Positions 22,490 through 24,801 of a stretch of DNA of 43,469 nucleotides are shown here, piece after piece. How positions within the stretch are numbered: position 1 is the first letter of the stretch; each line of letters starts with the position of its first letter. This DNA is from Thermoplasmata archaeon (GTDB lineage: Archaea; Thermoplasmatota; Thermoplasmata; Lutacidiplasmatales; UBA184), in assembly GCA_030041075.1 (NCBI GenBank), contig JASHOP010000008.1:1-43469 (forward strand). Reading direction: 5' to 3'. Under the pieces are notes generated by a model. That model had not been told where the DNA came from. It worked only from the letters and a program-made list of their open reading frames with translations, and searched no databases. The translations under genes were made by a program, and so were the position numbers.

Positions 22490-22918
22490 ATGCCCGAGAT
22501 CACGCTCCTCGGGATCGCCGAGGCCCGCGAGGGGTTCGAGTTCGTCTACCAGGGCGGCGCGCCGGTCTGCCGCACCTGCCCGTTCCGGCACGCGTGCCTG
22601 ACGCTCGACCCGGGCCGGCGCTACGCGGTGACGAAGGTACGGGATGTCACCCATCCGTGCGCGCTCCAGGAGACGGACGCCCACGTGGTCGAGGTGAAGC
22701 CGGTCGCCCGCTCCCTGGTCGTCGAGGCGCGCAGCGGGATCGTCGGGAGCCAGGTCGACGTGGGGCGCTACCCGTGCCGGCGACTGGACTGCCCGAACTG
22801 GCGGATCTGCGCCGGCCCCGACGTCCCCGCGAAGCAGCGGTTCCGCATCGAGCGCATCGATCCGGAGCCGGCGGAGTGTCGGATCGGCCGGACGCTGAAG
22901 CGGGTCGACGCGGTCTGA
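22490..22918 (+). CDS. UPF0179 family cysteine-rich protein
   Basis: A 142-residue archaeal protein of unknown function. Two similar cysteine clusters are present, CRTCPFRHAC in the N-half and CRRLDCPNWRIC in the C-half, suggesting a duplicated zinc or iron-sulphur site; VGRYPCRRLDCPNW and GRRYAVTKVRD are family-typical. It starts one base after the egsA stop, so it is coupled to lipid-backbone synthesis at least in expression; whether it is functionally linked is unknown. The 218 nt that follow, up to the convergent toroid protein, hold no gene I can support. Confidence 0.88.
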   Translation: MPEITLLGIAEAREGFEFVYQGGAPVCRTCPFRHACLTLDPGRRYAVTKVRDVTHPCALQETDAHVVEVKPVARSLVVEARSGIVGSQVDVGRYPCRRLDCPNWRICAGPDVPAKQRFRIERIDPEPAECRIGRTLKRVDAV

Positions 22919-23136: not shown

Positions 23137-24135
23137 TCAGACCATGCCCGCCCGCGACAGGACGCTGAGCGCCTCCACCGTCGCCCAGCGGCTCGGCTCG
23201 CCCGGCGGCTCGAGGCGCAACGGCCAAACGGGTCCTTCGTCGAACACGTACCCCCCGTGCCGTGGATCGAGGTCCGGGTGGTCCGCATCGATGGCCCACG
23301 TCCCGTCCCGTCGACGCTTACGGAGGAGCCATCGAAGCGCGGGCCGAAGCCGAGGATCCGACGCATACCCGAGACGGGTCAGGATCCCCAGCCCGACGAG
23401 CAGGTCGTAGTAGTAGTGAGTCGGGTAGTGGATCCGGAACCACGGAGGGTAGCGGACCCTGCCTTCGTTCATCAACCGACGGCTGAGGTAGAACTCCGCC
23501 CCGCGCTCGATCGATCCGCGGACCGAATCGTCGCGACGGTCCTCGGGGACTTCGGCCAGGCCGGCCAGTCCCTCCCAGCAATCCAACGACCCGGTTCGTG
23601 AGGACCAGCAGTACCAGCCCCCGTCCGCCTTTTGGGTCCGAACGATCCAGGCAATGGACCGGCGGACGACGCGATGGTCGAGGTATCCGTACCGGATCAA
23701 GGTCCGGACCGCGTTTCCGATGAGGCAGATCTCGGAGCCGGGTCCTCCGAGAAGGTCCGAGCCGCGCTCGGTCCAGCGGCGCATGATCAGTTCGGAGGTG
23801 CGCCGGATCCGGGGATCGGTGCGCGTCATGCCGAGATCGGCCAAGAGGAGGAAGCGCCAGTACGTCGAGATGTACTTGGGCCGGTAGAGTTCCGGGTCCG
23901 AGGAACCCGGGGTGGCCCAACGCCCGTCCGGGAACTGGAGGTCGAGAATCCCCGCCGCCCAGCCGGTGCGACCGATCGCCTTCCGGGCGGCGCGTACCCG
24001 AGGGTCGTGGGCGGGTCGGCGGTCCACCTCGGTCCAGAACCGCCAGCGGACGGACGGGTCCGACGCTCTTCCCGTGAGCCATCTCCGGGTCTGGCGGGAC
24101 ACCGGCATGGTCGGACGAAATGCCGGCGCGGCCAT
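23137..24135 (-). CDS. alpha/alpha-toroid protein (prenyltransferase/terpene-cyclase fold)
   Basis: A 332-residue all-helical protein with QW-like repeats of the terpenoid cyclase/prenyltransferase superfamily: LQFPDGRWATPG (about 70), TQKADGGWYCW (about 160) and KRRRDGTWAID (about 275), each a Gly-Trp turn between helices, plus ISTYWRFLLLADLG and PTHYYYDLLVGLGIL. The DxDD acid motif of squalene-hopene cyclases is not visible, nor is the zinc-binding set of protein prenyltransferase beta subunits. It could be a sugar- or terpenoid-binding toroid rather than a cyclase. ATG 24135 is chosen; ATG 24108 is an alternative. No TATA element is clear. Confidence 0.6.
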   Translation of the reverse strand: MAAPAFRPTMPVSRQTRRWLTGRASDPSVRWRFWTEVDRRPAHDPRVRAARKAIGRTGWAAGILDLQFPDGRWATPGSSDPELYRPKYISTYWRFLLLADLGMTRTDPRIRRTSELIMRRWTERGSDLLGGPGSEICLIGNAVRTLIRYGYLDHRVVRRSIAWIVRTQKADGGWYCWSSRTGSLDCWEGLAGLAEVPEDRRDDSVRGSIERGAEFYLSRRLMNEGRVRYPPWFRIHYPTHYYYDLLVGLGILTRLGYASDPRLRPALRWLLRKRRRDGTWAIDADHPDLDPRHGGYVFDEGPVWPLRLEPPGEPSRWATVEALSVLSRAGMV

Positions 24136-24693
24136 TAGTCCTGGGGCGGGGCCGGGTCCCGCGCGGGGTCTGTGAAACCGGCCCAGGGGCGGGTCCCCGG
24201 ACGGGGGGCGAACTTTGGAGGACGCTCGAAGGACTCGCGTGCGTCTCCCCATCGTACCGCCACGGCGAGAGGCCCGCCGGCCCGGGGAGCGAGGGTCGCA
24301 CCGTAGAGGCCGTGACCTCCCCGGAGCGGGACGGGGAAACGGTGGACGGCGCTGGCGAGACGGGAGCCGGGACGGTCGCGCTCTGCGTTCGAAGCCCTGA
24401 TCCCGGACCCGCCGGCGCGACGCATCCCCACCGGTGGCGACTCGGGACCCCAAGCACGAGGATCTCCCTCAAGCCGGGATGTCCCGGTGGGGATCGGATC
24501 GAGAAGCGTCAAGTTCGCCGCCCGGCCCGGAGCCATCGCAGCGGTCCGAGTCGACGCCGGGCGCAAGCGGACCTTGCCGTAGATCATGGCCGGTCCGGCA
24601 GTACCGGGTCCGTCGCCGCGCCGCTCCTTCGGATGCGGTCTCCCTCCTCCCAGCAAGGCCTTGAGGCCCCCGCCTCTGGGTCCACCCCAATGC
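24136..24693. other. 558-nt non-coding stretch
   Basis: Between the start of the toroid protein gene (minus) and the tRNA-Pro gene (plus). I see no open frame with coding character, no P4-like RNase P motif and no recognisable SRP RNA. It must hold the promoters of both flanking genes, but no AT-rich element stands out. Confidence 0.4.
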
Positions 24694-24801
24694 GGGGCTG
24701 TGGGGTAGCTACGGACGTGAGGACGCACCTCCGCCCGCACTACTGGTCCATCCTTCGGGCTTTGGGAGCCCGGGACCCCGATTCAAATTCGGGCAGCCCC
24801 A
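24694..24801 (+). tRNA. tRNA-Pro(UGG) with an apparent 33-nt D-loop intron
   Basis: Acceptor arms GGGGCTG (24694-24700) and CAGCCCC (24794-24800) pair fully, discriminator A at 24801, no encoded CCA. The anticodon arm is CGGGC-TTTGGGA-GCCCG with anticodon TGG. The T arm is CCCGA-TTCAAAT-TCGGG. Between GGGGTAGCT and the GG of the D loop there are 33 extra bases. Best splice model: cuts after 24711 and after 24744, with a 4-bp helix GGAC (24713-24716) to GTCC (24746-24749) flanked by 3-nt bulges TAC and CTG, i.e. a bulge-helix-bulge core; the outer and inner helices are imperfect. Removing 24712-24744 leaves a normal 75-nt tRNA with G18G19 restored. Confidence 0.85.

Follow-up and report, generated by a model that had tools for sequence, protein, structure and literature searches.

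The window analysed here, the whole stretch of 43,469 nt, is part of contig G000:C79 from a 1.6 Mb genome (107 contigs, 89% complete) of a genus that NCBI places in the Lutacidiplasmatales, Thermoplasmatota. On its forward strand, which carries all features of the locus described below, positions 24694–24801 hold a tRNA-Pro(UGG) gene, identified by direct reading and by ARAGORN after removal of an insert, that measures 108 nt unspliced and 75 nt spliced. The acceptor, D, anticodon and T arms can be read directly and are intact; the D loop contains 33 extra nucleotides. The 5′ exon (24694–24710) ends in …GTAGCT at tRNA position 17, the insert (ACGGACGTGAGGACGCACCTCCGCCCGCACTAC) covers 24711–24743 and the 3′ exon (24744–24801) starts TGGTCCATCC, with G18 and G19 at 24745–24746. 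The insert thus lies in the D loop between bases 17 and 17a/18—a position other than 37/38, with the anticodon arm unbroken—and its 33-nt length can be read from the sequence with a joint that is ambiguous by 1 nt.

Neither ARAGORN nor Rfam returned a tRNA from the unspliced gene (24694–24801), and Rfam gave no tRNA match anywhere in the window, even at a loose threshold. Deletion of 24711–24743 led ARAGORN to report a normal 75-nt tRNA-Pro(TGG), confirming the description in an earlier note of a tRNA-Pro(UGG) gene with a 33-nt D-loop insertion. That note had named a second intact tRNA-Pro(UGG) gene as the finding that would speak against it; a genome-wide search with the anticodon-arm pattern found none, the pattern occurring just once. 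The remaining proline tRNAs of the genome, CGG (L020) and GGG (L245), are both intronless. From these sequence searches, we regard the tRNA-Pro(UGG) gene as essential and its insert as conserved. Apparent second tRNA-Pro(UGG) genes in some relatives were rejected, the extra matches to TACGGGCTTTGGGA being to the 16S rRNA gene.

An open reading frame that ends …CRIGR.LKRVDAV lies immediately before the tRNA-Pro gene in many relatives. In the window, the reading frame with this ending (22490–22918) lies 1.8 kb upstream of the tRNA-Pro gene, and a 438-aa minus-strand reading frame (23137–24453) is situated between the two.

Conservation and covariation of the insert

Across related genomes of the window's order, 67 distinct tRNA-Pro(UGG) sequences, all from Thermoplasmata, carry the insert at the identical site. 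The GTDB r220 genome collection, scanned for this exon pattern only, yielded 63 named contigs, which are Thermoplasmata MAGs; the insert is present on 62 of them, the 63rd carrying an intronless gene with a chance match upstream. No match was labelled as coming from outside Thermoplasmata, save for vague titles ('bacterium isolate clean3188', 'Euryarchaeota archaeon'); among the matches was Candidatus Lutacidiplasma silvani AcS3-62, which shares an identical stretch with G365, from the genus to which the window belongs. Such recurrence is far beyond chance.

Within the insert, positions 24712–24737 are predicted to form a hairpin (helix h′) with a CGG/CCG closure, as judged from the minimum-energy fold and from covariation over 68 sequences (one chance match included), in which the arms were anchored on both exon borders so that no alignment was needed. 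Hairpin pairs 1–6 were paired in 67, 68, 66, 60, 55 and 46 of the 68 sequences, respectively, and pairs 2 to 6 exceeded every one of 500 shuffles. Pair 4, for which all four Watson–Crick types are present, was paired in 60 sequences against a shuffle mean of 37.1 (maximum 46) and pair 5 in 55 against 34.8 (maximum 45), although these counts treat related sequences as cells and do not amount to strict probabilities. Given the number of pair types, there is little doubt that the covariation is real.

Splice motif and joint

In the bulge-helix-bulge (BHB) motif, the 5′ exon supplies the 5′ strand of the central helix, and anticodon bases pair with the intron (PMC4090602). The endonuclease cleaves between bulge nucleotides 2 and 3, and in a solved complex the first bulge nucleotide is an A gripped by two side chains (PMC12397907). 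In the tRNA-Pro gene, the 5′ strand of the central helix would be GUAG (24705–24708, bases 12–15), which pairs perfectly with CUAC in the Pro genes of genera g5/g6 and near-perfectly in tRNA-Arg(GCG). It is followed by a first bulge, CU/A (24709–24711), that is 3 nt long in all relatives and contains the predicted 5′ splice site at 24710/24711. The 3′ strand in this register is CACU (24738–24741), which is degenerate, and the second bulge, AC/U (24742–24744), contains the predicted 3′ splice site at 24743/24744.

Pairing in the central helix of this register reaches 4/4 in the Pro genes of g5/g6 and in tRNA-Arg(GCG) and 3/4 in 58 of the 67 relatives and falls to 2/4 in the window's own gene; tRNA-Arg(GCG) of the same genome has a clean BHB. 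The 3′ side of the Pro motif is not a strict BHB, the GG after the second bulge being unpaired. In g5/g6, the gene reads GTAG-TTT-hairpin-CTAC-AAT-GG, with a strict 4-bp helix and two 3-nt bulges, and cuts at TT/T and AA/T give AGTT/TGGTCC, the exact sequence of the intronless gene in g2. Most genomes of the window's genus have C-T-C-T-A-N-T as the 7-mer that precedes GG, and cuts at CT/A and AN/T give AGCT/TGGTCC, the outgroup sequence. Positions 1, 5 and 7 of this 7-mer (24738 C, 24742 A and 24744 T) are invariant in all 67 Pro introns; the T is equally invariant in 21 Arg introns, and the first nucleotide of the second bulge is an A in 21/21 Arg introns and 19/23 T-loop introns. We take the register that cuts at 24710/24711 and 24743/24744 as the productive one and infer from these comparisons that the central helix has decayed in the window's Pro gene.

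The earlier note had proposed a different helix, between GGAC (24713–24716) and GTCC (24746–24749). Those letters exist, but they do not make a splice motif: the topology is inverted, because the 5′ strand of a BHB central helix comes from the 5′ exon and the 5′ strand of the proposed helix from the intron. Nor can such a helix covary, because its exon side never varies; its intron bases are partnered by the opposite arm of the hairpin, in which compensatory changes are clear. The note had also offered two joints, and it is 24710 to 24744 that agrees best with the data. Its first option, an intron with 24711 joined to 24745 to give AGCTA/GGTCC, leaves the product length unchanged and is accepted by ARAGORN, but seems improbable: the invariant T 24744 would then belong to the intron and the variable 24711 (A or T) to the exon, the outgroups carry T rather than A at that place and the motifs of g5/g6 and Arg would not be cut between bulge nucleotides 2 and 3.

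A shifted register, in which 24705–24708 pairs with CUAC at 24740–24743 and UGG forms the bulge, has a full 4/4 pairs, corresponds to the minimum-energy fold and persists in 55 of the 67 sequences, although splicing in the preferred register has no need of it. Were this a productive bulge-helix-loop, of a type that homodimeric enzymes can cut according to a study of the Ferroplasma enzyme (PMC8707768), cleavage 1–2 nt away would leave the D loop one base shorter or with only one G. We consider this slightly less probable still, as the bulge rule would put the cut inside G18-G19 and lose one of two near-universal bases, the invariance of 24738, 24742 and 24744 would go unexplained and the g5/g6 genes form this register poorly (1–2 of 4 pairs). 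In the Arg introns, position 6 of the 7-mer, the counterpart of the competing-pairing base, is unbiased.

We consider it very improbable that this gene copy has decayed or goes unexpressed, or that a functional tRNA retains the insert as an extended D arm: the fold does offer a stable extension of the D stem, but this is the sole Pro(UGG) gene found, its exons are near-identical over 67 genes while the insert covaries and is variable both in sequence and in length (33 to 42 nt within the captured stretch), and the inserts in 14 further tRNA genes of this genome follow the splice rule as well.

Other tRNA introns in the genome

The tRNA inventory, compiled by pattern, CM and own-script searches of genome stretches and possibly incomplete, comprises about 40 genes. 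It includes at least 15 introns outside 37/38—12 in the T loop and three in the D loop—and two at 37/38, in the anticodon loops of Trp and Leu(UAA) only. The T-loop introns lie at 59/60 and interrupt the genes for Asn, Gly(UCC), Arg(UCU), Arg(UCG), Glu(CUC), Lys(UUU), His, Gln(CUG), Ser(GGA), Ser(CGA), Ser(GCU) and Asp; they are 25–38 nt long and have a near-canonical BHB (loci L007, L016, L024, L027, L353, L357, L358, L359, L361, L362, L363 and L364). The D-loop introns are those of Pro(UGG), Arg(GCG) (L025) and initiator Met (L242). In a complete genome of the window's genus (G004), the T-loop introns number 11, the D-loop introns are again these three and four introns lie in the anticodon loop.

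With the T-loop introns of the two genomes pooled, 78 of 92 central-helix cells were paired in the model register; sliding the register by 1 to 4 nt gave no more than 63 of 92. These introns are nearer to canonical BHB geometry, the T stem abutting the central helix directly, whereas in Pro and Arg the D-loop intron motif has a relaxed 3′ side. The same splice rule is obeyed by the T-loop intron of tRNA-His (acceptor GCCGGGA), and the initiator Met intron has a CAGG/CCUG central helix with bulges AAA and AAA. In all family genera examined, tRNA-Arg(GCG) reads GTAG-CTA-hairpin-CT[AG]C-ANT-GG at the position of the Pro intron, with one CTAT variant.

ARAGORN assigned the right isotype to the spliced sequences of all resolved cases; the exception is Lys(UUU), which has a second insert. 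In that gene (L363), a further D-arm insert (GGTAG ACCGGCC…CGACACAG AGC) sits beside the T-loop intron. No BHB reading was found for this D-arm insert, and T-loop splicing alone leaves the tRNA unrestored.

Distribution across the lineage

The Pro intron was found throughout the window's genus, g1, and, within the same family, in g3, g156, g5 (G458) and g6. It is absent from the sister genus g2, from family f3 of the order and from other Thermoplasmatota in a small outgroup sample; the intronless genes read AGTTTGGTCC or AGCTTGGTCC, and the outgroups have GTAGCTTGGTCC at the joint, which is the spliced sequence. The Arg(GCG) intron occurs in 7/7 family genera sampled, and the initiator Met intron in g1, g3 and g156, with none in g2, g4, g5, g6, f2 or f3. 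The T-loop intron of tRNA-Asn is also present in g2 and g6, with none in the Asn genes read in family f20 of the same class. This distribution of the Arg, initiator Met, Pro and Asn introns points to stepwise gain within the family. The Arg(GCG) intron would then be older, as well as cleaner, than the Pro intron, which was probably copied from it.

Splicing endonuclease

One reading frame of the genome (L028, 354 aa) has two tRNA_int_endo (PF01974) domains and there is no second subunit gene, indicating an α′2-type enzyme; most of the 96 genomes with a PF01974 match likewise have two, and in nearly all such genomes one reading frame carries both domains. Profile matches of the protein are to the endonucleases of Methanopyrus (5X89, the best), Archaeoglobus and M. 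jannaschii, and a fold search with the structure model (pLDDT 82, unreliable at residues 79–118) retrieved the same set. The catalytic residues Tyr292, His300 and Lys331 and the bulge-binding Arg324 are invariant in 20 proteins from the order.

At the site of the Crenarchaea-specific loop (CSL; the YGS…LS turn), the protein has no insert, and the CSL/ASL loop, to which broad specificity is attributed, is absent: it reads YGSRIGDRLELS there against YGSEKGDLVTLS in the wild-type A. fulgidus enzyme, and the loop-bearing chimera 3P1Y has 16 extra residues. No gap occurs at this site across the 20 order proteins, and the model shows a tight turn.

Residues 79–118 of L028, modelled with low confidence, contain a conserved PRGG..HKTPSRYW stretch that is specific to the lineage and absent from the A. 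fulgidus enzyme. This stretch alone does not explain the gain of introns, because it is also present in sister families.

Discussion

Conservation of the insert, covariation in its hairpin and the intronless genes of relatives support the suggestion of the earlier note that this is a BHB-type D-loop intron, unusual for Thermoplasmatota; very probably, the insert is a real non-canonical archaeal tRNA intron of BHB type. In pre-tRNA-Pro(UGG), GUAG (bases 12–15) and the 3′ part of the insert would form a loose pairing, flanked by the CUA and ACU bulges with the hairpin between them. A single-gene α′2-type endonuclease would cut between nucleotides 2 and 3 of each bulge, at 24710/24711 and 24743/24744, and a tRNA ligase would join the exons into GTAGCTTGGTCC, restoring the D loop of intronless relatives. 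As to origin, the intron would have been copied from tRNA-Arg(GCG) by recombination between the two tRNA genes, with decay of the central helix afterwards; copying from Arg to Pro is the simplest origin because GTGGGGTAGCT and the intron position are common to both. The account as a whole—an intron, cut at these two sites, copied from Arg(GCG) and followed by helix decay—has a high probability in our judgement.

Genes with T-loop introns are missed or given wrong ends by common tRNA finders, and in these genomes ordinary annotation tools overlook or miscall many tRNA genes, in this case the sole tRNA-Pro(UGG). The description of the Lutacidiplasmatales, an order first known from soils, reports a tRNAscan-SE run and leaves introns unmentioned; some of the introns described here may already appear in tRNAscan-SE results for these genomes. 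A search of the open-access literature found no earlier report of such introns in Thermoplasmatota.

Reviews associate non-canonical introns with heteromeric or loop-bearing endonucleases (PMC4090602, PMC4033280), and in euryarchaea with α4 or α2 enzymes introns are said to occur at the canonical position only (PMC4090602); in dissent, homodimeric enzymes are stated to be capable of cutting bulge-helix-loop motifs (PMC8707768). A large and well-sampled lineage of Thermoplasmatota here breaks the review pattern of canonical-only introns with α4/α2 enzymes. The earlier note saw in the intron a hint of a broad-specificity splicing endonuclease. One reading, to which we give even odds, is that this Lutacidiplasmatales family gained many D- and T-loop introns with relaxed motifs and has an α′2 enzyme that is broad without loop inserts, and so forms an exception to the rule of CSL/ASL co-evolution. 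Alternatively, the enzyme may merely meet near-canonical motifs at new positions; most of the T-loop motifs are near-strict, but the window's Pro motif is not. With datable gains (Arg before Pro and initiator Met), intronless sisters and one enzyme gene, the family provides a test of what lets introns spread.

Introns of the D and T loops are a known kind, found mainly in Crenarchaeota and Thaumarchaeota. In Crenarchaeota (Thermoproteales such as Pyrobaculum) and Thaumarchaeota, they are likewise short with BHB boundaries, and the intron load is comparable, P. aerophilum having 21 in 46 tRNAs (PMC3218864). Those lineages, however, have heterotetrameric endonucleases, with the CSL in Crenarchaeota, whereas the genome described here has one α′2-type gene without the loop. 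Korarchaeum cryptofilum, in a 2014 review the sole α2 archaeon with non-canonical introns (PMC4033280), shares the combination of a single-gene enzyme and such introns, but the specific loop is reported in its enzyme and there is none at that site in ours.

The best match by both sequence and fold is the (αβ)2 endonuclease of Methanopyrus kandleri (PDB 5X89), a hyperthermophilic methanogen in which the enzyme is encoded by two separate genes, 5X89 being an artificial fusion. Its specificity has been called 'constrained broad' (PMC6379350), and M. kandleri figures in the short list of euryarchaea with multiple-intron tRNAs. The α′2 enzymes of A. fulgidus and T. acidophilum, considered narrow (PMC6379350), are also fused two-domain proteins that keep the Tyr/His/Lys and Arg residues and have no loop insert; the two-domain endonuclease of the window's genome is about 50 residues longer than either.
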